In this document: in pieces, positions 42,912 through 54,571 of the stretch
How the letters are laid out: each line of letters opens with the position of its first letter
Numbering within the stretch: position 1 is the stretch's first letter
Source of the DNA: Paraburkholderia sp. PGU19
GTDB lineage: Bacteria > Pseudomonadota > Gammaproteobacteria > Burkholderiales > Burkholderiaceae
Assembly: GCF_013426915.1 (NCBI RefSeq)
Contig: NZ_AP023181.1
Location: 1-64,000 of the forward strand
Direction of reading: 5' to 3'
DNA: 64,000 bases
Translations under genes and position numbers: made by a program
Notes under the pieces: generated by a model
Databases searched by the model: none
What the model was told of the DNA's origin: nothing
Seen by the model: only the letters and a program-made list of their open reading frames with translations

Positions 42912-44303
42912 TCACATCATCGGCATATGCAGATGATGGGGATCGCTCAAGGTTTCCGCGACGCGCTGTAACGCGTCGCGGCAATCGCTTCTGTCCTGCG
43001 GGCCGCCCAGACAGACGCGGATCGTATTAGGCGGGTTTCCATCGGTCGAAAACGCCGCGCCCGCTACCGCTCCCACGCCCTGATTGCGCAATTGCAGCGC
43101 AAGCTCGGGCGCGCTCCAGTCGCACTGCGGCGGAATCGGCAACCACAAATGAAAGCCATCGGCCTGCGCTTCGTAATGCCAGTCGGCAAGTTCCTGTGAG
43201 GCAATCGCCTGGCGCGCGTTCGCTTCCTTGCGGATCGCGTCGAGCATCTCGTGCGCGGTGCCATCGTTGACCCATTGCGTCGCCAGCAACACCGTGAACG
43301 GACTCGGCATCACGGTTGTCGCGCGCAACGCGCCCGCAACGCGCTGCGTCTGCCTCGCTGTCGGCGCGCGCAAATAAGCGACGCGCAGCCCCGCGCCGAA
43401 GGTCTTCGAAAAACCCGTTACATACCAGGTGAGTTCCGGCGCGAGTGACGCTAGCGCGACAGGCTTGTTCGCCGGCAGCCAACCATACGCATCGTCTTCG
43501 ATAATAGGGACGCTGTAGCGCAACGCGACATCCGCGAGTGCTTCACGCCGTTGCACCGAAAGCGTCAGCGTGCTCGGATTCTGCAAGGTCGGATTGCAGT
43601 AGAAGGCACCGGGCTTCTCGGTCTTGCACAGCGCTTCGAAGGCGTGCGGCAACGGTCCTTCTTCATCGCGCGGGAGCGGTTGCAAGCGCACGCCGAGTTG
43701 CGACGCGATCGCCTTGATGCCGGGATAGGCGAGCGTGTCGAGGCAAATGGTTTCGCCAGGTCTTGCGAGTTGCGACACGAGCGCGACCAGCGCGCTATGA
43801 ATGCCGGGACACACAAGCACGGTATCGTCTTCGCAATCGGGCAAGCGCTCTTTCAGCCACGCGCGTCCTGCCGCGCGGTCGTCCGGCGTGCCGCCGAAAT
43901 CCTGGTAGCGCAGCAGCCTGTATGGATCAGTTTGCGCAAGCAGATGCGCCGACGATTCTCTCAAGCGCGCCGCAAGTTCGGGCGGCTCGGGCGGCATGTT
44001 CATCGACATCTCGACGCTGCTGCCGCCCGCGAGCGGCAAGGTCTGCGTGCGTCCGCGCACGAACGTGCCGCTGCCCGCACGCGCATCGAGCAGGCCGCGT
44101 TTGCGCGCCTCCGCATACGCGCGCGCGACAGTGGTGTAGTTCAACTGCAATGCACCCGCCAGATCGCGCAAGCCGGGCAGACGGTCGCGCGGACGCAGAC
44201 GACCGCTGGCGAGATCTTCCTCGATCAGATCCGGTATCACGAGATACGCCGGTTTGCGGCTTTCCGTCAGCCGCTTGAGCCAGTGATGCGCGAGACTGTC
44301 CAT
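42912..44303 (-). CDS. MocR-type regulator (GntR HTH plus aminotransferase domain)
   Basis: A 463-residue fusion of an N-terminal GntR winged helix (DRLPGLRDLAGALQLNYTTVARAYAEARKRGLL) and a fold-type I aminotransferase domain. The PLP lysine is likely in SKTFGAGLR, with IIEDDAYGWL and YCNPTLQNPS as further cofactor segments. MocR proteins respond to PLP or amino-compound ligands. It is divergent from the Nit1C-type operon, 396 bases away. In pseudomonads the Nit1C cluster is instead led by the sigma-54 activator NitA, so this regulator may have taken its place. Confidence 0.9.
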   Translation of the reverse strand: MDSLAHHWLKRLTESRKPAYLVIPDLIEEDLASGRLRPRDRLPGLRDLAGALQLNYTTVARAYAEARKRGLLDARAGSGTFVRGRTQTLPLAGGSSVEMSMNMPPEPPELAARLRESSAHLLAQTDPYRLLRYQDFGGTPDDRAAGRAWLKERLPDCEDDTVLVCPGIHSALVALVSQLARPGETICLDTLAYPGIKAIASQLGVRLQPLPRDEEGPLPHAFEALCKTEKPGAFYCNPTLQNPSTLTLSVQRREALADVALRYSVPIIEDDAYGWLPANKPVALASLAPELTWYVTGFSKTFGAGLRVAYLRAPTARQTQRVAGALRATTVMPSPFTVLLATQWVNDGTAHEMLDAIRKEANARQAIASQELADWHYEAQADGFHLWLPIPPQCDWSAPELALQLRNQGVGAVAGAAFSTDGNPPNTIRVCLGGPQDRSDCRDALQRVAETLSDPHHLHMPMM

Positions 44304-44418
44304 GCTGTTAATTCCGATGCGGATGGCGTGAATGCGTTATTCAAGGTAACACGCGAATTCCGCGAAAAATAAATCGGTTTGCATTCAATTCGAAACTTGA
44401 TCGCATTGATTGGATGAA

Positions 44419-44435: not shown

Positions 44436-44611
44436 TCGCGCACCATCCGCACGCAAAAGACGCTGCGACGTTGTGCGAAACCGGTGCGCGCGCATCCGTC
44501 GCCGATACCCGAAAACCCCCATCAGACACGGCTCGCAAAGAAATTTTCGGGTCGCTCGAACAATCGCGATTTGATTGATTGGAAGTTGATTGCATGAACC
44601 AGGCCGGAAAT

Positions 44612-44626
44612 TGGCATATCCGTTGC
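44612..44626 (+). promoter_or_regulatory. Sigma-54 promoter of the Nit1C-type operon
   Basis: TGGCATATCCGTTGC carries the essential GG (-24) and GC (-12) with exactly 10 bp between, and agrees with TGGCAC-N5-TTGC at all but one base. The predicted start is near 44638, giving a leader of about 60 bases before ATG 44700. It implies control by nitrogen status through an enhancer-binding protein. Confidence 0.75.
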
Positions 44627-44699: not shown

Positions 44700-45182
44700 A
44701 TGCCTGCCGTCAACAAACCGCTGCATCAGAAAGGCGATTACCTGGTCGACTACGAAGAAAAGGTATTTCCCGACGTCAAGGCCGAACCCGGCGAGAAAGC
44801 GCTCGTCACCTTTCACACGGTCGCATTCGAAGGCTCGATCGGTTTCGTCAACCTGTTGCAGGCCACCCGCCTGCAACGCAAGGGCTTCGATACGTCGGTG
44901 CTGCTGTATGGCCCCGGCGTCACGCTCGGCCTGCAACGCGGCTTTCCGACGCTTGGCGACGAAGCCTTTCCCGGCCATCTGAACTTCAACAAGCAACTCG
45001 TCAAATTCATGGAAGAGGGCGGCAAGGTCTACGCATGCCGCTTCGCGTTGCAGGCGCTGTATGGGCATGGTGAAGCGTCGCTGATCGAAGGCATCCGGCC
45101 GATCAATCCGCTCGACGTGCTCGACCTGCAGCTTCTGCATCGCAAGGAGAACGCGCTGATCATCCATACGTGGACCGTCTGA
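44700..45182 (+). CDS. nitB: Sll0783/MSMEG_0572 family nitrogen-starvation protein
   Basis: A 160-residue soluble alpha/beta protein ([41 protein letters not shown]) of the family named after Synechocystis Sll0783, which is induced by nitrogen starvation and needed for polyhydroxybutyrate build-up there. The fold looks DsrE-like; the reaction is unknown. ATG 44700 follows TTGGAGAG by four bases. It opens the ten-gene operon and is followed 17 bases later by the nitrilase gene. Confidence 0.85.
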
Positions 45183-45199
45183 CGCGCCGGGTGCCCATC

Positions 45200-46225
45200 A
45201 TGTCCGAGCAGCGAATCATCCGTGCAGCGGCGGTGCAGATTGCGCCGGAGTTCGAGCGTCCCGGCGGCACGCTCGACAGGGTATGCGCCGCAATCGACGA
45301 AGCCGCATCAAAGGGCGTGCAGCTGATCGTCTTTCCCGAGACGTTCGTGCCGTACTACCCGTACTTTTCGTTCGTGCGTCCGCCCGTCGCGTCGGGCGCC
45401 GAACATATGCGGCTCTACGAGCAGGCCGTCGTCGTGCCGGGCCCCGTCACGCAAGCGGTGAGCGAACGCGCGCGCCGTCATTCGATGGTAGTCGTGCTCG
45501 GCGTGAACGAGCGCGATCACGGCAGCCTGTACAACACGCAACTCGTGTTCGACGTCGATGGGCGTCTCGTGCTCAAGCGCCGCAAGATCACGCCGACGTT
45601 TCATGAACGGATGATCTGGGGGCAAGGCGACGCGGCGGGGCTCAAGGTCGCGCATACGGGCATTGCGCGAGTCGGCGCGCTCGCGTGCTGGGAGCACTAC
45701 AACCCGCTCGCGCGCTACGCGCTGATGACGCAGCACGAAGAGATCCATTGCAGCCAGTTTCCCGGCTCGCTGGTCGGGCCGATTTTCGCCGAGCAGATCG
45801 AGGTCACGATCCGTCATCACGCGCTTGAATCGGGCTGCTTCGTCGTCAATTCGACGGGCTGGCTCAGCGAAGCGCAGATCGAATCTGTGACGACGGACCC
45901 GAAGCTGCAAAAGGCGCTGCGCGGCGGCTGCATGACGGCAATCATCTCGCCCGAAGGCCAGCATCTCGCCGAGCCGCTGCGCGAAGAAGAAGGGATGGTC
46001 GTCGCGGATCTCGACATGTCGCTGATCACGAAGCGCAAACGGATGATGGACTCGGTCGGCCACTATGCGCGGCCCGAGCTGCTGAGTCTTGCCATCAACG
46101 ACCGTCCGGCGCTGCCCGTTGCGCCGATGTCGATGTCGTTCGAACGCGCGGGCGCGGACGCCGCACCCGACGAAACCACGAGTGGAGGTCAGGATGAATG
46201 CCAGCGTGAACCTGTCGCCGGTTGA
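45200..46225 (+). CDS. nitC: Nitrilase (Nit1C/Nit6803 type)
   Basis: A 341-residue nitrilase-superfamily enzyme with the catalytic triad Glu47 ([12 protein letters not shown]), Lys129 ([12 protein letters not shown]) and Cys163 ([12 protein letters not shown]). These segments are typical of aliphatic nitrilases of the Sll0784 subgroup. It converts R-CN to the acid plus ammonia, or forms an adduct that other cluster enzymes use. In pseudomonads the equivalent gene is essential for growth on cyanide. ATG 45200 is the conserved start; its C-terminus overlaps the radical SAM gene by 32 bases. Confidence 0.92.
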
Positions 46226-47327
46226 GCCGCGCACGCAGCGCCAGTTGATGGAACTGCGCACGGAACTGCAATCGGCCGGGCTGCGTCTCGTCGATCCGAA
46301 TGCGGGCGCCGCGAGCCGGCGTGGCGGCGCGGGTCCGTCGGATCACAAGGCCGTGACTGTCGACGGCGTGACGATCATGGTGCCCGTGCATACCAGCTCC
46401 GCGTGGCATTCGCCATTCGTCGCCGGCGCGCCGGATGAGGCGGGGACGAGTGCGCTGATGCGCGGCACGATCCCGATTGCCAGCATCAGCTTTCCGAAAG
46501 CGCCACGCTTCACGCAGCTGCAAACACTTGACGGCGTGCCGTACTCGCACATCGCGACGCTGCATGGCACCGACGTCCTCGCGACGACGGTGCTGCAAAC
46601 TTGCATCCGCTATGAGAGCCGCAAGAAGACCTGCAAGTTCTGCGCGATCGGCCAATCGCTCGCGGCGGGTCGCACGATTGCGCGCAAGACGCCGGAGCAG
46701 CTTGCGGAAGTGGCGCGCGCCGCCGTGCTGCTCGATGGCGTGAAGCACATGGTGCTGACCACGGGCACGCCGCCCACGCCGGATCGCGGCGCGCAGATCC
46801 TGTGCGAAAGCGCGTTTGCGATCAGGGCCGCTGTCGATCTCCCGATTCAGGCGCAGTGCGAGCCGCCCGACAACGATGCGTGGTTCGAGCGCATGAAGGC
46901 GAGCGGCATCGACACGCTCGGCATGCATCTCGAAGTGGTGACGCCGGACGTGCGCGCTCGCGTGATGCCGGGCAAGGCGAGCGTGCCCATCTCGCGCTAT
47001 ATGGAAGCATTCAGGGCGGCCGTCGCGGTGTTCGGCAAGGGGCAGGTCAGCACGTATATCCTCGCGGGCCTCGGCGATACGGCGGAATCAATCCTGTCGA
47101 TCTCGCGCGAACTGATCGACATCGGCGTGTATCCGTTCGTCGTGCCCTTCGTGCCGATCAGCGGCACGCCGCTCGAAGACCATCCCGCGCCTTCGCCCGA
47201 GTTCATGAAGTCGATCCTAGCGCCGCTCGGCGCGATGCTGCGCGACGCGCAGATGCGTTCCGCCGATATCAAGGCGGGCTGCGGCAAATGCGGCGCGTGC
47301 TCGTCGCTCGCATCGTACGAGGACTGA
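46194..47327 (+). CDS. nitD: Radical SAM protein, MSMEG_0568 family
   Basis: A 377-residue radical SAM enzyme. The cysteines expected to hold the SAM cluster are Cys137, Cys147 and Cys150 ([15 protein letters not shown]), i.e. C-x9-C-x2-C instead of the classic C-x3-C-x2-C. A second Cys set lies at the very end (Cys363, Cys366 and Cys369, GCGKCGAC), suitable for another Fe-S cluster. AGGLGDT-like and QAQCEPPDN strands fit a partial TIM barrel. GGAGG lies five bases before ATG 46194. The substrate is unknown; the family is always found with this nitrilase. Confidence 0.88.
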
Positions 47328-47329
47328 TC

Positions 47330-47893
47330 ATGTTCTGCGAGACATTCGACGAACTGGATGCATTGCCGCTCGACTTCACACCCGCCGAGTATCGCGTGAA
47401 ATGGGCGACGCTGCCGTGGGAAAGCAATGAAGCGTACGCGTTGCGGCGCGCGGTGTTTTGCGTCGAGCAGGGGATCTTCGTTGGCGACGACCGCGACGAG
47501 ATCGACCGTCACGTGAAGCTGCTGGTCGCGCTGAGTTGTATTGCGGGCGTGCCGGAACAGGTGGTCGGCACGGTGCGGATACACGAAACGCAGCCGCGCA
47601 CGTGGCTCGGCTCGCGCCTTGCCGTGCATGCGGCGTTCCGCTCGCACGGCAAGCTCGGCTCGACGCTGATCCGCCTCGCTGTCAGCAGCGCGCACGCGTT
47701 GGGGTGCGATACGTTTCTCGCGCATGTGCAGCGTCAGAACGTGCCGCTGTTCAGGCGGCTGCACTGGCAGACGGTCGCGGAGGAAACGCTGTTTGGCCGG
47801 CCTCACGATTTGATGGAGGCGGACCTTGCGCACTATCCGCCGTGCTTTACGCCGGAAAGCGGTTTCGTCACGTCGTCGCGAGGCCGCTCATGA
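47330..47893 (+). CDS. nitE: GNAT N-acetyltransferase, MSMEG_0567/Sll0786 family
   Basis: A 187-residue GNAT-fold protein. The acetyl-CoA region includes VVGTVRIHETQPRTWLGSRLAVHAAFRSHGKLGSTLIRLAVSSA, with a reduced R/Q-x2-G-x-G/A loop, followed by LAHVQRQNVPLFRRLHW. N-acylation of a cluster intermediate is likely. It starts two bases after the radical SAM stop and ends in an ATGA overlap with the next gene, so it is tightly coupled. In some genomes this domain is fused to the following AIR-synthase-like protein. Confidence 0.85.
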   Translation: MFCETFDELDALPLDFTPAEYRVKWATLPWESNEAYALRRAVFCVEQGIFVGDDRDEIDRHVKLLVALSCIAGVPEQVVGTVRIHETQPRTWLGSRLAVHAAFRSHGKLGSTLIRLAVSSAHALGCDTFLAHVQRQNVPLFRRLHWQTVAEETLFGRPHDLMEADLAHYPPCFTPESGFVTSSRGRS

Positions 47894-48876
47894 GTCTGCA
47901 AGCGCTGGTCGAAAGGATGCGCGCAAGCCGCGGCTTTCGACACAAGACGGATATAGCGGGCGTGGTGGCGTCACTGGCGTCGCGATTGCCGAACGGCACG
48001 CGCGATCTCGCACAAGCCGTTGCCGTGGGCGACGACTGCGCGGCGCTGGGCGATGGCGACGGCTATCTGCTGTTTGCGATCGAAGGGCTGGTCAGCGATT
48101 TCGTCGAAACGATGCCGTGGTTCGCGGGCTATAGCAGTGTGATGGTGAACATCAGCGACGTGTATGCGATGGGCGGCCGGCCACTCGCCGTCGTCGATGC
48201 GCTGTGGAGCGATGGGCTCGATGCGGCTGGGGAGATTCTGGCGGGTATCGCGGCGGCATCGAATGCGTATGGCGTGCCTGTCGTAGGCGGACATAGCAAC
48301 ACGCGCAGCGCGGAGCCGCAGCTTGCCGTGTCGATACTCGGCCGTGCGCGCGCGTTACTGTCGAGCTTCAACGCGCGACCGGGCGACAGCCTCGTGATGG
48401 CCGTCGATCTGCGCGGCCGTTTCGAAGATCCGTATCCGTTCTGGAATGCGTCGGTGGGCGCGCCCGCCCAGCGTCTGCGCGACGATCTAGAGCTGCTGCC
48501 ACAACTCGCGGAAAGCGGGCTCTGCGACGCGGCGAAGGACATCAGCATGGCGGGTGTGCTGGGCACGTCGCTGATGTTGCTCGAATGTTCGGGTGTCGGC
48601 GCACGCATCGATCTCGATGCGATCCCTCGCCCGGAGCATGTCGATTTCGAACGCTGGCTCAGTGCGTTTCCGAGTTATGGCTTCGTGCTTTCCGTGCGCG
48701 ATGAGCGCGTGGATGAAGTGCTCGCGCGCTTCACGCAGCGCGGCCTGGCGTGCGCGACGATTGGTGACGTGGATGCGTCGCGTGAAGTAGTGCTCACGCA
48801 GCAGGGCGATTCGGCGTTGCTCTGGAGCTTCAAGGACAGCGCGTTCATCGGCGCGCCAGTGGGAGCGCAAGCATGA
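47890..48876 (+). CDS. nitF: AIR-synthase-related protein, Sll0787 family
   Basis: A 328-residue PurM/SelD/ThiL-like protein with an N-terminal ATP-binding half (AVGDDCAALGDGDGYLLFAIEGLVSDF, MVNISDVYAMGGRPLAVVDAL) and a C-terminal half (DISMAGVLGTSLMLLECSGVG). The superfamily activates an amide, nitrile-like or acid oxygen with ATP to form C-N bonds. Four-base overlaps with both neighbours show strict co-translation. The substrate is unknown but probably derives from the nitrilase or radical SAM product. Confidence 0.87.
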   Translation: MSLQALVERMRASRGFRHKTDIAGVVASLASRLPNGTRDLAQAVAVGDDCAALGDGDGYLLFAIEGLVSDFVETMPWFAGYSSVMVNISDVYAMGGRPLAVVDALWSDGLDAAGEILAGIAAASNAYGVPVVGGHSNTRSAEPQLAVSILGRARALLSSFNARPGDSLVMAVDLRGRFEDPYPFWNASVGAPAQRLRDDLELLPQLAESGLCDAAKDISMAGVLGTSLMLLECSGVGARIDLDAIPRPEHVDFERWLSAFPSYGFVLSVRDERVDEVLARFTQRGLACATIGDVDASREVVLTQQGDSALLWSFKDSAFIGAPVGAQA

Positions 48877-50054
48877 ACGGCACGACGATGCGCATTGCGT
48901 TGTTCACGCATTCCGTCAATCCGCGCGGCGGTGTGGCGCATACGCTGGAACTCGGGCGCGCGCTGCATGAAGCAGGGCAGGATGTGACGATCTTCGCGCC
49001 ATCCGTCGACGGCGCGCCTATGTTCCGTGCATCACCTTGCCGTGTCGTGCTCGCACCTGTCGCGGCGCACGGCAACGATACGGTGACGATGGTGCGGACG
49101 CGCATCGACGCGCTGAAAGCGGCATTGCTCGAAGGCGGCGCGTCCGGCTTCGACGTGCTTCATGCGCAGGACAGCATCAGCGGCAACGCGCTTGCGGAGT
49201 TGCGCGAAGCGGGCGCGATTCGCGGTTTCGTGCGCACGGTTCATCATCTCGATACCTTCGACGATGCACGGCTGAGCGAGTGGCAACGACGTGCGTTCGC
49301 GGATGCCGATGATGTGTTCTGTGTGAGCGATGCATGGACGCGCAAGATGAGCGACGAGTTCGGTATTGCGGCTTCAACGGTCAGTAACGGCGTTGACGTG
49401 CAGCGCTTCCGCAGTTCAACCGAAGCAAAAGACTCAGACGTCTTGGTGAGGCTCGGCGTTATCGGCAAGCCGGTCGTACTGGCCGTGGGCGGCATCGAGG
49501 AACGCAAGAACACGCTGCAACTGCTGGAGGCGTTTGCATTGCTCAGGCAAACGCATGCCAACTCGCAACTCGTGATCGCAGGTGGCGCGAGCCTGCTCGA
49601 TCACGATGCCTATACGCGCCGCTTCTTCGCGCGCGCTGCGCAACTGAGTCTGTGCATCGGGCAAGGCGAACCGATCGTAATCACTGGTCCGCTCGATGAC
49701 GCGGCCATTCCCGCATTGATGCGGCGTGCCGATGTCGTTTCGATGGTGTCGTTGCGCGAGGGCTTTGGTCTCGTCACGCTCGAAGCGCTGGCGGCGGGCG
49801 CGCCCGTCATCGTGTCGCAGATCGAGCCATTTACCGGCTATCTCGACGAACACGTCTGCTGCTGGGCACTACCCGATGACGCCGCCAGCATCGCCGACGC
49901 ACTCCGCCGTGCGTTGCGCGAACGCGGCGGCATCGACTTCGAACATGCAGTACCCGAGCTTCTTGCAAGCTTCAGTTGGCACGAAAGCGCGCGCCGTCAT
50001 GTCGCGCTGTATGCGAGCCACGTGCGGCACATCATGCAACCGCTCGGCGCCTGA
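48873..50054 (+). CDS. Glycosyltransferase, MSMEG_0565 family
   Basis: A 393-residue GT-B fold glycosyltransferase. The N-terminal half has HSVNPRGGVAHTLELGRALHEAGQ, and the donor site has VLAVGGIEERKNTLQLLEAF and the E-x7-E-like RADVVSMVSLREGFGLVTLEALAAGAPVI of GT4 enzymes. It overlaps the previous gene by four bases. Its presence suggests that the cluster makes a glycosylated product rather than only degrading nitriles. The donor and acceptor are unknown. Confidence 0.87.
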   Translation: MNGTTMRIALFTHSVNPRGGVAHTLELGRALHEAGQDVTIFAPSVDGAPMFRASPCRVVLAPVAAHGNDTVTMVRTRIDALKAALLEGGASGFDVLHAQDSISGNALAELREAGAIRGFVRTVHHLDTFDDARLSEWQRRAFADADDVFCVSDAWTRKMSDEFGIAASTVSNGVDVQRFRSSTEAKDSDVLVRLGVIGKPVVLAVGGIEERKNTLQLLEAFALLRQTHANSQLVIAGGASLLDHDAYTRRFFARAAQLSLCIGQGEPIVITGPLDDAAIPALMRRADVVSMVSLREGFGLVTLEALAAGAPVIVSQIEPFTGYLDEHVCCWALPDDAASIADALRRALRERGGIDFEHAVPELLASFSWHESARRHVALYASHVRHIMQPLGA

Positions 50055-50077
50055 ATGTCTCAATCAAAGGAAACGTG

Positions 50078-50362
50078 ATGCCAGTCATGCACTTCAAGGT
50101 CCAGTGGCCGGACGGCAGCGAGGCCAACTGCTATTCGCCTTCGACCGTAGTCGGCGAGTTTTTCGTTGCCGGACAACGTTACGCGCTTGGCGATTTCGTC
50201 GAGCGAGCACGCGAGGCGCTGCATATCGGCTCCGAACGCGTGCGCGAGAAGTACGGCTTCGCGTGCTCGGCGGCGATGGATCAGCTAGCGCAGATCGAAA
50301 CCCAGGCGCAGCGCTTTTCAACCGATCCGCAAGCGGAAGTCCAGGTCGTCGAACTTTTGTGA
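50078..50362 (+). CDS. nitG: Small nitrogen-starvation protein, MSMEG_0570 family
   Basis: A 94-residue protein (MHFKVQWPDGSEANCYSPSTVVGEFF, then helical to VQVVELL). AAAGGAAACGTG precedes ATG 50078. It has no phosphopantetheine Ser in a DSL-like motif, so it is not an acyl carrier protein despite the acyltransferase-like gene downstream. The family is known only from this cluster type, and the function is unknown. It may be a subunit or carrier for a cluster enzyme. Confidence 0.82.
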   Translation: MPVMHFKVQWPDGSEANCYSPSTVVGEFFVAGQRYALGDFVERAREALHIGSERVREKYGFACSAAMDQLAQIETQAQRFSTDPQAEVQVVELL

Positions 50363-50382
50363 ACCGAACGCAGGAAAGAATC

Positions 50383-51675
50383 ATGTCGAACGCAAACATC
50401 ATTGCTCCCGATGCAACGAGCGCGGCTCCCCACCATACGGTGATCGTCGTAGGCGGCGGACAGGCGGGACTGTCGATCAGCTACTACCTGAAAGAGGCGG
50501 GCATCGATCATCTCGTGATTGAAAAGCACACGGTCACGCACACCTGGCGCTCGCAGCGCTGGGATGCGTTCTGCCTCGTCACGCCGAACTGGCAGTGCGC
50601 GCTGCCGGGCTATCCGTATCGCGGCGACGATCCGCATGGCTTCATGAAGAAGGACGAGATCATCGCGTATCTGGACGGCTTCATCGCGATGGTCGATGCG
50701 CCCGTGCTCGAACATACGGAAGTGCGCAAGATCAGGCGCATGGCATCAGGCGGCTATGTCGTGTCGACGTCGAACGGCGACTTTACGGCCGATCAGGTTG
50801 TGGTGGCCTCAGGCGGCTATCACACGCCCATCGTGCCGCGCATGGCCGAGCGGTTGCCTACCGATATCGTGCAGTTGCAGTCGTCGCATTACCGCAATCC
50901 GCAGGCACTGCCCGAAGGCGCGGTGCTCGTCGTCGGTTCGGGGCAATCGGGCGCGCAGATTGCCGAAGACCTGCATCTTGCGGGCCGCAAGGTGTATCTG
51001 GCCGTAGGTGAAGCGCCGCGTTGCGCGCGCTTCTATCGCGGCCGCGATGTGGTCGACTGGCTCGCCGACATGCGCTACTACGACATGCCCGTCGATCAGC
51101 ATCCGCTGCGCGAAGGCGTGCGCGACAACACGAATCACTATGTCACGGGCCGCGATGGCGGACGCGATATCGATCTGCGGCGCTTTGCGCTCGAAGGCAT
51201 GGAACTCTATGGGAGGCTCGACGATCTGCGCGACGGCCGTCTGCAATTCGCGCCGAATCTGATCGACGCCCTCGATAGCGCGGACGATACGTACAACCGG
51301 ATCAATACGAGCATCGATGGCTTCATAGAGAAGCATGGTATCGATGCGCCGACTGGCGTGCCTTACGAACCCGTGTGGCAACCCGAAGGCGAACGCACAT
51401 CGCTCGATCTTGCAGAAAGCGGTATCACGTCAATCATCTGGTGCATCGGTTTCAGGCCGGATTTCAGCTGGATCGATGCGCCCGTTTTCAACGGACGCGG
51501 CTATCCCGCGCATGTTCGCGGCATCACGCCGCAAGCGGGGCTGTATTTCATCGGGCTGCCGTGGCTGCATACATGGGGATCGGGCCGCTTCTCCGGTATC
51601 GCGCGTGACGCCGGGCATGTGGTCGACACGATCCGCTCGGCCATCGACGCGACATCGGCGAGTCTCGCGGCGTGA
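50383..51675 (+). CDS. nitH: FAD-dependent oxidoreductase, MSMEG_0569 family
   Basis: A 430-residue flavoprotein monooxygenase-like enzyme with an N-terminal FAD motif (VVGGGQAGLSISYYL, near residue 22), a second dinucleotide motif for NAD(P)H (VVGSGQSGAQIAEDL) and a C-terminal FAD segment (GLYFIGLPWLHTWGSGRFSG). This two-motif layout fits class B monooxygenases that oxygenate C, N or S atoms. ATG 50383 has AGGAAAG upstream. The stop overlaps the GTG start of the following gene, linking the Nit1C set to the LnmK-like gene. Confidence 0.87.
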   Translation: MSNANIIAPDATSAAPHHTVIVVGGGQAGLSISYYLKEAGIDHLVIEKHTVTHTWRSQRWDAFCLVTPNWQCALPGYPYRGDDPHGFMKKDEIIAYLDGFIAMVDAPVLEHTEVRKIRRMASGGYVVSTSNGDFTADQVVVASGGYHTPIVPRMAERLPTDIVQLQSSHYRNPQALPEGAVLVVGSGQSGAQIAEDLHLAGRKVYLAVGEAPRCARFYRGRDVVDWLADMRYYDMPVDQHPLREGVRDNTNHYVTGRDGGRDIDLRRFALEGMELYGRLDDLRDGRLQFAPNLIDALDSADDTYNRINTSIDGFIEKHGIDAPTGVPYEPVWQPEGERTSLDLAESGITSIIWCIGFRPDFSWIDAPVFNGRGYPAHVRGITPQAGLYFIGLPWLHTWGSGRFSGIARDAGHVVDTIRSAIDATSASLAA

Positions 51676-52493
51676 GCATGATTCAACGCTATCGCGCGGG
51701 CATGCCGCAACTGAGCTATACGGGGCTGTCGGAAAACTGGTTGCTCAAGGAGTGCGGGCATCGCCATTGGGAGGCGCTCGCAGCGCACGCGGGCCGCGAA
51801 CAAACCGACTTTCACAACGACAACGGCGGGCGCTCGTATGCGGCGTTTACAGCGATACGCTTGCACACAAGCGGTCTCGACTTGATCAGCGAAAACGACA
51901 CGTTCGACATTCGCAGCACACTCTGCAGAACGGGTCCTGTTCGCCATTTCAGCACGCATCGCGTCATGCGCGGCGAAACGGAAATCGCGGAACTGTCGAT
52001 GTCGTCGGCATTTGTCTCACGCGGCGAGCAGCGCAGCAACCGTTGCGTTGCGCGCGCGGCGCTTGCGGCACTACCAGGTGAAGTGGAGCCGATGCCCGAA
52101 CGTGCATTGCAGATGATGCAGATGAGCAAGCGCCTGCGTGCGGCGGACGGCAGCGCAATGCCGGACCTCGCGCCCGCAACCGACGAGCCGATCGACTTCC
52201 TGCCGTGCCCGAATAGCGATTTCAACGGCGCGGACTTTCTCTATTTCGCGAGCTTTCAGGCTTTTGTCGATCGCGCCGAATGGCAATGGCGTCGCTTCGA
52301 CGAGCCGCCTGTCGTGACAAGCCGCTCGCTGTTCTACTACGGCAATGTCGATGTCGGCGATACGTTGAGCGTGCGCGTGGTCGGCAGCGCCGAAGATGAA
52401 CAGGGCATCCGGCACTGGACGGAAGTGCACCGCAAGAGCGACGGCATGAAGATCGCCGATGTCACGACGGAAAAGTACTGGAGGCGCCGATGA
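51672..52493 (+). CDS. LnmK/Pnap_2097-like protein (hot-dog fold, methylmalonyl-CoA handling, tentative)
   Basis: A 273-residue protein with the double hot-dog pattern of the Pnap_2097/LnmK group (LSYTGLSENWLLKECGHRHWEAL, FYYGNVDVGDTLSVRVVG). LnmK of leinamycin synthesis takes methylmalonyl-CoA, loads it on a carrier protein and decarboxylates it to a propionyl unit. The neighbour being methylmalonyl-CoA mutase makes the same substrate likely here. GTG 51672 overlaps the previous stop (GTGA); ATG 51678 is an alternative. Its own stop overlaps the mutase start. No carrier protein gene is visible. The family call is from memory of these patterns. Confidence 0.72.
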   Translation: MSMIQRYRAGMPQLSYTGLSENWLLKECGHRHWEALAAHAGREQTDFHNDNGGRSYAAFTAIRLHTSGLDLISENDTFDIRSTLCRTGPVRHFSTHRVMRGETEIAELSMSSAFVSRGEQRSNRCVARAALAALPGEVEPMPERALQMMQMSKRLRAADGSAMPDLAPATDEPIDFLPCPNSDFNGADFLYFASFQAFVDRAEWQWRRFDEPPVVTSRSLFYYGNVDVGDTLSVRVVGSAEDEQGIRHWTEVHRKSDGMKIADVTTEKYWRRR

Positions 52494-54571
52494 GCCCAAC
52501 CCGTGCACGCCGCCGCGCCGTGCCGCTCAAGCGTGTCTATACGCGCGCGGATATCGACGGCATCGCGCATCTCGACAGCATGCCGGGTGAAGCGCCGTTC
52601 GTGCGTGGGCCGTTCGCTTCGATGTACACCGAAAAGCCCTGGACGATCCGTCAGTACGCAGGCTACGCGCAGGCCGCCGACACGAACCTCGCGTTCCGCA
52701 CAGCATTGGCGGAAGGCGCGCAAGGTCTGTCCGTCGCATTCGATCTGCCGACCCAGCGCGGTTACGATTCGGACGATCCCACCGTCAGCGCCGACGTCGG
52801 CATGACGGGCGTCGCGATCGACACAGTAGAAGACATGGCCCGCCTCTTCGAAGACATTCCGCTCGACCGCGTGTCGGTATCGATGACGATGAACGGAGCC
52901 GTCTTGCCCGTGCTCGGCGCGTTCATCGTCGCGGCAGACGAAAGCGGCGTGCACGAGTCGCAACTGCGAGGCACGATCCAGAACGACATACTGAAAGAGT
53001 TCATGGTTCGCAACACGGCCATCTTCGCGCCCGAACCCTCGCTGCGCATCGCCGCCGATGTGGCCGCATATCTCGCGCAACAGGTGCCACGTTTCAATGC
53101 GCTGTCGGTATCCGGCTATCACTTTCAGGAAGCGGGCGCGGACGCTGTGCTCGAACTCACGCTGACGATGGCCAATGCGCGCGCCTACGTCGACACGCTC
53201 GTCGCACGCGGCATGCAGGCAAACGATGCGTGCGAGCGCATGAGTTTCTTCTTCGGTGTCGGCACGGATTTCTATGTCGAGGTCGCGAAGCTGAGAGCCG
53301 CGCGGCTGTTGTGGTCGGAGATTGCGGCGCAAAGCGGCGCGACGTCGGGCAAGGGTCGCGCGCTGCGCATGCATTGCCAGACTTCGGGCTGGTCGCTGAC
53401 GGCGCAAAAGCCGATGAACAACGTCGTGCGAACAACGGTCGAGGCGCTCGCGGCTGTGTTCGGCGGCACGCAGTCGTTGCACACCAATGCGTACGACGAG
53501 GCACTGGCTCTGCCTTGCGCCGAGTCTTCGCGGCTCGCGCGCGATACGCAACTGCTGCTTCAGCACGAGACGGGAGTTTGCGATGTAGTCGATCCGTGGG
53601 CGGGGTCGTACATGATGGAAGCGCTGACGGCTGATATCGCAAGCCGTGCGCGTGCCATGCTCGATGAGATCGACGCGAGCGGTGGCGTCGTTGAGGCGAT
53701 ACATTCGGGCTGGGTACGCACGCGCATTCACGAATCGGCGCTGCGCGTGCAGGCCGAAATCGAAAGCGGGCAACGTGTAATCGTGGGCGTGAACCGCTTT
53801 ATGACGGATGACGAGGATGAGCCTCCTGTTCCGCAAGCATTGGACGCTGCACAGACTCGCACGCTACAGGCGCGCCGCATCGCGCAGGTGAAGCGCTCGC
53901 GCGACGTAACCCGTGTGCGCGACACGCTCGCGGTGTTGCAGCGGGCGGCGCGCGATGGCGAAGGCAACCTGCTTGAATTGACCATCGAATGTATGCGTGC
54001 GCGCGCGACAGTCGGCGAATGCACACAGGCACTGGCGGCCGTGTGGCCTCGGCATGGCGTGGATTTGCCGATATCGTCGCAGGTGTATGGCGAGATGGTC
54101 TTGTCCGAAGCCGAATGGATCACAGCCCGCGCAGCGGTGGACCGAGCGACAAAGCGGTTAGGGCGTGCGCCGCGCATCCTGTTGGCAAAGCTCGGCCAGG
54201 ACGGACACGATCGTGGCGCGCGTGTCGTTGCTGCCGCGTTGACGGACGCCGGCTTCGAAGTGACAACGGGCGCGATGTTCGCGTCAGCAGAGGAAGTCAG
54301 CGAACTGGCGTTGAAGGATGACGTCGATGTGATCGGCGTGTCGTCGCTTGCAGGCGCGCATGTCGAACTGGTGTCGGGTCTGCTCGACGCATTGCGTAAG
54401 CGGCGCGCACGCATCCCCGTCGTGATCGGCGGGAACATCGACAGCGCGAGTTGGCATGTGCTGAAGGAACGGGGCGTCGCCCGATACTTTCCGACCGGCG
54501 CGAGCATCCAGACAATTGTCACGGAGCTGGCGGCGCACGTCTGCGAGATCGATTTCGCAGCGGCGTCATAG
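52490..54571 (+). CDS. Methylmalonyl-CoA mutase, single-chain form
   Basis: A 693-residue B12 enzyme with catalytic barrel and cobalamin domain in one chain. Residues that bind methylmalonyl-CoA are kept: Tyr56 (TIRQYAG), Arg174 (FMVRNT, aligned with the Arg that reads the carboxylate; isobutyryl-CoA mutase has Gln) and His211 (SVSGYH). The cobalt ligand is His573 in GQDGHDRG. It overlaps the LnmK-like gene by four bases. No GTPase chaperone, epimerase or small subunit accompanies it, so it is unlikely to be the cell's housekeeping propionate enzyme and probably supplies the LnmK-like protein. Confidence 0.92.
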   Translation: MSPTRARRRAVPLKRVYTRADIDGIAHLDSMPGEAPFVRGPFASMYTEKPWTIRQYAGYAQAADTNLAFRTALAEGAQGLSVAFDLPTQRGYDSDDPTVSADVGMTGVAIDTVEDMARLFEDIPLDRVSVSMTMNGAVLPVLGAFIVAADESGVHESQLRGTIQNDILKEFMVRNTAIFAPEPSLRIAADVAAYLAQQVPRFNALSVSGYHFQEAGADAVLELTLTMANARAYVDTLVARGMQANDACERMSFFFGVGTDFYVEVAKLRAARLLWSEIAAQSGATSGKGRALRMHCQTSGWSLTAQKPMNNVVRTTVEALAAVFGGTQSLHTNAYDEALALPCAESSRLARDTQLLLQHETGVCDVVDPWAGSYMMEALTADIASRARAMLDEIDASGGVVEAIHSGWVRTRIHESALRVQAEIESGQRVIVGVNRFMTDDEDEPPVPQALDAAQTRTLQARRIAQVKRSRDVTRVRDTLAVLQRAARDGEGNLLELTIECMRARATVGECTQALAAVWPRHGVDLPISSQVYGEMVLSEAEWITARAAVDRATKRLGRAPRILLAKLGQDGHDRGARVVAAALTDAGFEVTTGAMFASAEEVSELALKDDVDVIGVSSLAGAHVELVSGLLDALRKRRARIPVVIGGNIDSASWHVLKERGVARYFPTGASIQTIVTELAAHVCEIDFAAAS

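Follow-up and report, generated by a model that had tools for sequence, protein, structure and literature searches.

A 2005 study described Nit1C gene clusters from cyanobacteria, proteobacteria, and a verrucomicrobium (PMC1199592). Nit1C has been called essential for cyanide detoxification in Pseudomonas pseudoalcaligenes (PMC6368324). In 2016, a nine-gene Nit1C operon was reported for the Red Sea nitrilase NitraS-ATII, which is 98% identical to a nitrilase of Cupriavidus basilensis; the operon ends in a conserved hypothetical protein and a putative methylmalonyl-CoA mutase (PMC4751646). Here, we analyzed a Nit1C cluster of Paraburkholderia sp. PGU19, whose genome comprises 11.2 Mb in five contigs. 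The window, that is, the whole stretch of DNA analyzed, is the first 64,000 nucleotides of contig NZ_AP023181.1. Ten complete genes lie on its plus strand from position 44700 to 54571. Eight of them make up the Nit1C cluster, gene 9 belongs to the LnmK family, and gene 10 encodes a methylmalonyl-CoA mutase (MCM). The arrangement itself is already known from the 2016 operon, for which the sections of that paper available to us give no interpretation. In the open-licence PubMed Central literature searched, a cluster with nitrilase, MCM, and radical SAM genes appeared only in PMC4751646, the literature on LnmK and methylmalonyl-CoA gave no interpretation of the arrangement, and Pnap_2097, the family name of the LnmK-like protein, was absent from the matches listed.

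Our favored reading is that the LnmK-like gene and the MCM gene form an acyl-supply module added to the Nit1C pathway, running from succinyl-CoA through (2R)-methylmalonyl-CoA to a propionyl unit that is put on a Nit1C intermediate. We assign it a probability of roughly 0.62. The mutase would convert succinyl-CoA to (2R)-methylmalonyl-CoA. The LnmK-family protein would take this 2R stereoisomer directly, with no need of an epimerase, and decarboxylate it. Its active-site tyrosine would hold or deliver the propionyl group, which would reach the Nit1C intermediate through the LnmK-like enzyme itself or, as propionyl-CoA, through the GNAT of the cluster. Transcription would start from one sigma-54-type promoter before the first gene, and a MocR-type regulator may read the adjacent repeats. 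The sequence-only reading had proposed a propionyl or methylmalonyl building block for the product of the operon; families, residues, and co-occurrence are consistent with this, and we retain it in conditional form. The small nitrogen-containing metabolite and the biosynthetic role of nitrile chemistry that it also put forward stay hypothetical.

The co-occurrence of the LnmK-like gene, MCM, and Nit1C was analyzed in 35 genomes of the genus, including that of the window. Nit1C was present in 24, the LnmK-like gene in 15, and an MCM-type mutase (641–679 bits) in 15. The same 15 genomes held both the LnmK-like gene and MCM, which were adjacent in every case and at most about 5.5 kb from the Nit1C radical SAM gene. 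The other 20 genomes, nine of them with Nit1C, had neither. Fisher's test gave 3e-10 over the 35 genomes and 8e-7 within the 24 Nit1C-bearing ones, with relatedness ignored. One of the 15 (G001) had an additional, shorter mutase match (644 bits, 556 residues). In another genome (G029), two Nit1C clusters were observed (on C9 and C30, the latter L234), one with the LnmK–MCM pair and one without.

The scan was then widened with an alignment of 32 sequences, namely that of the window and 31 of 120 listed proteins (493 found). From species genomes the best 80 of 130 loci were kept (79 distinct), which biases the set toward close relatives. Of the 79 loci, 77 had one or more of six core Nit1C genes in the stretch around LnmK, and 71 had all six. 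MCM was present in 61 of the 79. The aligned ends lay 3–197 bases after LnmK in 60 of these, and in L092 MCM was 1183 bases from LnmK, past an inserted frame. The MCM-bearing hosts belonged to Burkholderiaceae, Methylophilaceae, Pseudomonas, and Oceanospirillaceae. Two LnmK loci had no Nit1C genes, L067 and L126. L067 is cut by a contig end, and Nit1C lies on another contig of the same genome. L126 (3313–4278, Polaromonas glacialis) carries an LnmK-like gene in a genome in which no Nit1C radical SAM gene was found; by eye, its neighbors were integrase-like. A conserved extra gene after MCM, or a single conserved substitute in clusters without the pair, was also considered and rejected, as the downstream genes varied by lineage in a simple frame comparison and on inspection by eye.

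In a tree of the Nit1C radical SAM protein with 102 rows, presence of the pair changed 11 times, at least eight of them forced by well-supported branches. The pair is therefore an add-on that was repeatedly gained or lost. Rows were required to have a readable radical SAM protein and a flavoprotein gene, and L239, L240, and L241, in which the pair lies elsewhere in the genome, were counted as pair-bearing. Twelve rows had been chosen for the absence of LnmK, so group sizes in the tree are not frequencies.

The region upstream of the first gene was inspected for control elements. It contains a conserved GG-N10-GC match of the sigma-54 promoter type, and the pattern TTGGCAYRNNNNTTGC had a single match in the window, at 44611–44626 (0.02 expected). 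This match and the repeats before it, like the divergent MocR-type regulator, are absent from the sequence-only reading. In 76 of 103 Nit1C loci, the core TGGCA-N6-TTGC precedes the first gene by no more than 400 bases (1.1 expected). Among the 27 loci without it, some had near matches (a Pseudomonas form with TTCGC) and others had nothing convincing (L078, L093, L125, and L209). The repeat TTGATnGCAT, on either strand, precedes the first gene in 76 of 102 loci (3.5 expected). A homologue of the MocR-type regulator flanks Nit1C in 26 of 27 Nit1C-anchored loci, 12 of which had been chosen for the absence of LnmK. Pfam showed no sigma-54 activator domain in the window's MocR-type regulator. Eight Pseudomonas loci have a conserved regulator gene; the one tested (L095) has sigma-54 activator and PAS domains, which fits NitA of P. 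pseudoalcaligenes (PMC11049912). Podar et al. reported in 2005 that conserved upstream sites of Nit1C could not be identified (PMC1199592). The patterns found here suggest sigma-54 control for many proteobacterial Nit1C clusters.

NtrC enhancers were considered as well and rejected. The enhancer consensus is TGCACCA-N4-TGGTGCA. The window has tempting half-sites, yet the best scores were close to those of shuffles (mean 8.63 versus 8.42; p < 0.05 in 1 of 76 loci).

The strongest evidence that the pair belongs to Nit1C comes from rearranged copies. In five Pseudomonas loci (L103, L107, L108, L109, and L113), LnmK–MCM is divergent from Nit1C. These five separated operons have their own sigma-54-type matches (10–13 of 14 positions; 500 shuffles matched equally well in shares of 0.002, 0, 0.006, 0.042, and 0). 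Three satellites were also found. In Ralstonia (L086), a second GNAT gene heads LnmK–MCM, and the adjacent Nit1C cluster has a GNAT of its own. The L075 satellite reads NitB–GNAT–flavoprotein–LnmK–MCM, and the L066 satellite, from a metagenome-assembled genome, reads flavoprotein–LnmK–MCM; for both, a complete Nit1C lies on another contig, with no LnmK in the stretch read there. The satellites had sigma-54-type matches of 12/14 (L075, p = 0.004), 11/14 (L086, no shuffles), and 10/14 (L066, p = 0.124, not significant alone). TTGATnGCAT-type repeats were present at all three, and none were found in L103, the one Pseudomonas operon inspected for them. For comparison, the best sigma-54-type match in the 450 bases before LnmK in the window was 8/14. 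Because a second GNAT gene accompanies the pair in two of the three satellites, the GNAT enzyme is a candidate partner of the pair.

The co-occurrence that the sequence-only reading had wanted checked is there. Strict co-occurrence within the genus, Nit1C neighbors in other families and orders, and the same promoter type where the pair is separated support the assignment of both genes of the pair to the Nit1C system.

The LnmK-like protein was assigned to the LnmK/Pnap_2097 family by a score above the TIGR04098 cut-off, by its fold, and by the catalytic tyrosine and asparagine. Its nearest relatives are from Paraburkholderia, with 92% identity to one of P. hospita among the matches listed. A profile match to the LnmK structure 6x7l had an E value of 4e-9. 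The predicted model had a mean predicted local distance difference test (pLDDT) score of 87.6, and its seven best PDB matches were all LnmK (template modeling score 0.80–0.82 by query length). Y56 aligns with residue 62 of LnmK (6x7l, residue counted by hand) and was present in 82 of 82 readable rows. We take Tyr62 of LnmK to be the acylated residue. N185 aligns with the asparagine of LnmK's conserved loop and was present in 83 of 83 readable rows. LnmK and Mad decarboxylases use an asparagine on such a loop (PMC8666670). The reference list of the same paper includes a title stating that LnmK specifies (2R)-methylmalonyl-CoA.

The mutase is a full-length single chain with a B12 domain and a score above the equivalog cut-off (Table 1), so the complete B12 mutase noticed from the letters was borne out. 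The residues Tyr89, Arg207, and His244 (P. shermanii numbering) and the motif DxHxxG are, in our assumption, those that mark an MCM, with the roles that go with them. The window's mutase has Y46, R174, H211, and the DxHxxG motif. Among in-cluster MCMs, 60 of 62 rows were aligned, the fragments L110 and L124 being left out; Tyr89 was kept in 59, Arg207 in 60, His244 in 60, and DxHxxG in 57. In the IcmF encoded by the window's genome, Arg and Gln stand in place of Tyr89 and Arg207. By its aligned residues, the in-cluster mutase keeps the recognition residues for the methylmalonyl/succinyl carboxylate and the B12 motif. Two other mutases were observed along the way. The own-genome relative L002 (C5:34089–35609) has the Tyr and is without Arg207 and His244, and therefore a different substrate is likely. 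At L233 (15249–16790), where the Nit1C cluster has no LnmK, an IcmF-type mutase lies about 1.4 kb past the divergent MocR gene.

The direction of flux was assessed from other mutases and from the epimerase. For the 61 pair loci, 27 genomes were tested; in all 27 the in-cluster gene was the sole MCM-type mutase, and other matches were of IcmF type. Of 18 genomes with LnmK and no adjacent MCM, 15 had a separate housekeeping MCM (770–807 bits). As for the other three, L091 had none, L093 (cut by a contig end) had a Nit1C-type gene on another contig, and L106 had a partial match of 591 bits; a third association test set L093 and L106 aside. In a quick mutase tree with a distant outgroup, from which 12 of 87 rows were omitted (fragments, IcmF, and unlike paralogues), the 15 housekeeping MCMs formed one clade apart from the Nit1C mutases. 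The tree did not establish the latter as a single clade, and those of Methylophilaceae adjoin the housekeeping clade. Row L151, labeled housekeeping, stems from the L093 genome and clusters with the Nit1C mutases. The methylmalonyl-CoA epimerase model (cut-off 115 bits) scored at most 36 bits in the window's genome and passed the cut-off in none of 20 pair-bearing genomes, and 3 of 14 other genomes passed. A mutase making (2R)-methylmalonyl-CoA beside a family that takes the 2R form fits a flow from succinyl-CoA to a propionyl unit.

Several observations weigh against the acyl-supply reading. Identity to LnmK in the structural alignment was only 17–19%, so the substrate or the acceptor may have changed. 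The known acceptor of LnmK is an acyl carrier protein, and NCBIfam and Pfam found none encoded by the ten genes. Across the class, a single genome in 369, that of the window, passed the Pnap_2097 cut-off. The Nit1C radical SAM gene was above its cut-off in 16 of 398 genomes of the phylum, the window's included; of the other 15 clusters, three had a distant LnmK-like gene (30–37% identity), 12 had neither gene, and none had an MCM in the surrounding 18–20 kb. Together with the nine of 24 Nit1C-bearing genus genomes that are without the pair, those 12 make "fused", the word used in the sequence-only reading, too strong for what is an optional add-on. No MCM-type mutase was found in Cupriavidus campinensis (L091), which has LnmK and Nit1C. 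The contrast between in-cluster and housekeeping MCMs follows taxonomy. The epimerase model is insensitive, as betaproteobacterial genomes with a housekeeping MCM scored only about 40 bits, and the epimerase result is therefore supporting evidence only. A sigma-54-type match of 10/14 also lies inside the window's LnmK gene, ahead of MCM, so such a score alone proves little. In addition, two of the 27 genomes tested had a split or short in-cluster MCM gene: that of L099 (Cupriavidus necator UYPR2.512) is in two pieces, and only the first part of that of L124 (Pseudomonas sp. ZH-FAD) was matched.

The low identity to LnmK leaves some room for a mutase that supplies methylmalonyl-CoA to an LnmK-like protein that transfers methylmalonyl, or another acyl group, without decarboxylation. 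The absence of a carrier protein from the cluster would fit this, as would residues 182–190 around the catalytic Asn, the sole stretch of the model with pLDDT below 50. We nevertheless consider it unlikely, given that no readable row departs from the Tyr or the Asn and that decarboxylation by LnmK and the Mad proteins uses a loop Asn of this kind (PMC8666670).

Less likely still is a Nit1C that assimilates cyanide or nitriles and makes no acylated product, the pair serving only to recycle or vent carbon from succinyl-CoA to propionate during nitrogen stress. The role reported for Nit1C in P. pseudoalcaligenes (PMC6368324) speaks for it, and a mutase–decarboxylase pair yields propionyl-CoA in the Sbm operon of E. 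coli (PMC3850637). However, a purely catabolic nitrilase would presumably have no need of a radical SAM protein, a GNAT, and a glycosyltransferase, the GNAT and flavoprotein duplicates stay with the satellite pairs, and none of the ten genes encodes a YgfH-type CoA-transferase.

An ordinary role of the mutase in the catabolism of propionate or odd-chain compounds, from propionyl-CoA to succinyl-CoA, with the gene placed here by chance or for co-regulation, would suit a fully conserved MCM, an enzyme that many bacteria are known to use in this way, and an epimerase model that is weak in betaproteobacteria could miss the enzyme there, but we rejected this role as very improbable on the co-occurrence (genus genomes lacking the LnmK-like gene, 20 in all, also have no MCM-type mutase), on the sole-mutase, clade, and (weak) epimerase evidence, and on the adjoining decarboxylase-family protein, which would undo the carboxylation.

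A wider form of the acyl-supply reading is possible, and we put it forward tentatively, as it is the less probable of the two. Nit1C would be a biosynthetic core making a common amine- or nitrile-derived compound, and LnmK–MCM would be a movable propionylation cassette with its own sigma-54/repeat control region, in which the LnmK-like enzyme passes propionyl to a small molecule and not to a carrier protein.

The cluster itself was checked gene by gene (Table 1). All ten open frames were confirmed, and in a profile scan each of the ten proteins scored above the curated NCBIfam cut-off for its expected family, in keeping with the ten same-strand genes of named families listed from the letters; some scanned stretches started 3 to 9 bases off the given start codon. 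NitB, nitrilase, radical SAM, GNAT, AIR synthase-like protein, NitG, and flavoprotein were above their cut-offs and in the order of PMC1199592, which places the cluster in Nit1C. Several of these families carry NCBI names as nitrogen starvation response proteins. Four-base overlaps, which had been put at most junctions, are certain at only three of nine (GNAT/AIR, AIR/GT, and LnmK/MCM). A fourth (flavoprotein/LnmK) exists only if GTG 51672 is the start and not ATG 51678, so that claim was overstated. The nitrilase/radical SAM overlap is 32 bases, and at the remaining junctions 2 to 23 bases separate the genes. Of 61 related loci, 50 preserve the LnmK/MCM overlap: a start codon in frame with MCM overlaps the stop codon of LnmK by four bases. 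No sigma-70-like promoter turned up in a consensus scan. In a sequence scan, terminator-like sites were no commoner than in shuffles (9 versus 9.2), and none stood out between flavoprotein and LnmK.

Table 1. Genes and control elements of the Nit1C–LnmK–MCM locus (positions in the window).
Feature	Position	Strand	Evidence
MocR-type regulator (GntR DNA-binding + aminotransferase-like domain), divergent	42912..44303	-	Pfam PF00392 + PF00155
Repeat TTGATCGCATTGATTGG, possible regulator site	44397..44413		TTGATnGCAT pattern
Direct repeats TTGATTGATTGGAAGTTGATTGCAT just 5' of promoter match	44571..44595		sequence
Sigma-54-type promoter match TTGGCATATCCGTTGC (-24/-12)	44611..44626	+	sequence
MSMEG_0572/Sll0783 family protein (NitB)	44700..45182	+	TIGR04044, 289 bits
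Nit6803-family nitrilase (NitC)	45200..46225	+	TIGR04048, 577 bits
MSMEG_0568 radical SAM protein (NitD)	46194..47327	+	TIGR04043, 595 bits
MSMEG_0567/Sll0786 GNAT acyltransferase (NitE)	47330..47893	+	TIGR04045, 241 bits
sll0787-family AIR-synthase-like protein (NitF)	47890..48876	+	TIGR04049, 488 bits
MSMEG_0565 family GT4 glycosyltransferase	48873..50054	+	TIGR04047, 507 bits
MSMEG_0570 family small protein	50078..50362	+	TIGR04042, 137 bits
MSMEG_0569 flavin-dependent oxidoreductase (NitH)	50383..51675	+	TIGR04046, 700 bits
Pnap_2097/LnmK-family decarboxylase-acyltransferase	51672..52493	+	TIGR04099, 350 bits; TIGR04098 (LnmK), 299 bits, cut-off 100
Adenosylcobalamin-dependent MCM, single chain with B12 domain	52490..54571	+	PRK09426, 988 bits, cut-off 876; PF01642 + PF02310

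The MSMEG_0570 protein was considered as a carrier protein and rejected on its model (pLDDT 95.6), which is predicted to have an alpha/beta fold and not the bundle of a carrier protein. In 21 sequences of this family, WPD was invariant, a CYSPS motif was observed (SPS invariant, Cys and Tyr nearly so), and C63 was invariant. The glycosyltransferase gene was unmatched in a number of related loci, and a short remnant-like match was observed at L230 (7898–8035). On the 3' side of the cluster are a GntR/FCD regulator, an altronate-dehydratase-type protein, and a KdgT permease, with no evident link to it.

The pair points to a Nit1C that makes a small molecule and does not only break down cyanide. 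Nit1C is needed for cyanide use in a pseudomonad (PMC6368324), yet no product of it was named in the open-licence literature searched. Viridisamide, considered as a Nit1C product, was dropped, as among the matches listed the name goes with cyanobactin, aeruginosamide, and cyanobacterial metabolites. A dedicated propionyl supply would narrow the search for the product. If the acyl-supply reading is true, the product in pair-bearing strains would be C3-acylated, B12-dependent, and labeled from succinate; it could be traced by isotopes and compared with strains without the pair. The Pnap_2097 family would also gain a likely reaction and a home system.

Compared with the known Nit1C clusters (Podar 2005, nitBCDEFGH of P. 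pseudoalcaligenes, and the MSMEG/sll sets), all seven genes and their order are the same here, and the glycosyltransferase insertion matches one reported in a Burkholderia Nit1C (PMC1199592). A sigma-54 link is common to both, as NitA of P. pseudoalcaligenes is described as a sigma-54-dependent regulator (PMC11049912). Unlike them, the cluster here adds the LnmK-like gene and MCM, and a MocR-type regulator stands at the place of the Pseudomonas NitA. In the available sections on the NitraS-ATII operon (PMC4751646), the hypothetical protein is not named as LnmK-like, no glycosyltransferase is listed, and no co-occurrence, regulation, or reaction is proposed. The Sbm operon of E. coli (sbm-ygfD-ygfG-ygfH) likewise combines a mutase with a methylmalonyl-CoA decarboxylase and leads from succinyl-CoA to propionyl-CoA. 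Its YgfG, however, belongs to the crotonase superfamily, the operon has YgfD and YgfH, and no Nit1C is part of it as described (PMC3850637). The decarboxylase candidate here is LnmK-like and not of the crotonase (YgfG) family, so the cluster is not of the Sbm type. With LnmK of leinamycin (PDB 4hzn and 6x7l) and LrgK of largimycin (PMC9396626), the protein shares the fold and the aligned Tyr and Asn, and conversion of methylmalonyl-CoA to propionyl would be expected. LnmK and LrgK, as described there, act in polyketide clusters alongside a discrete carrier protein and a homologue of HMG synthase, whereas neither of these partners is among the ten genes here.

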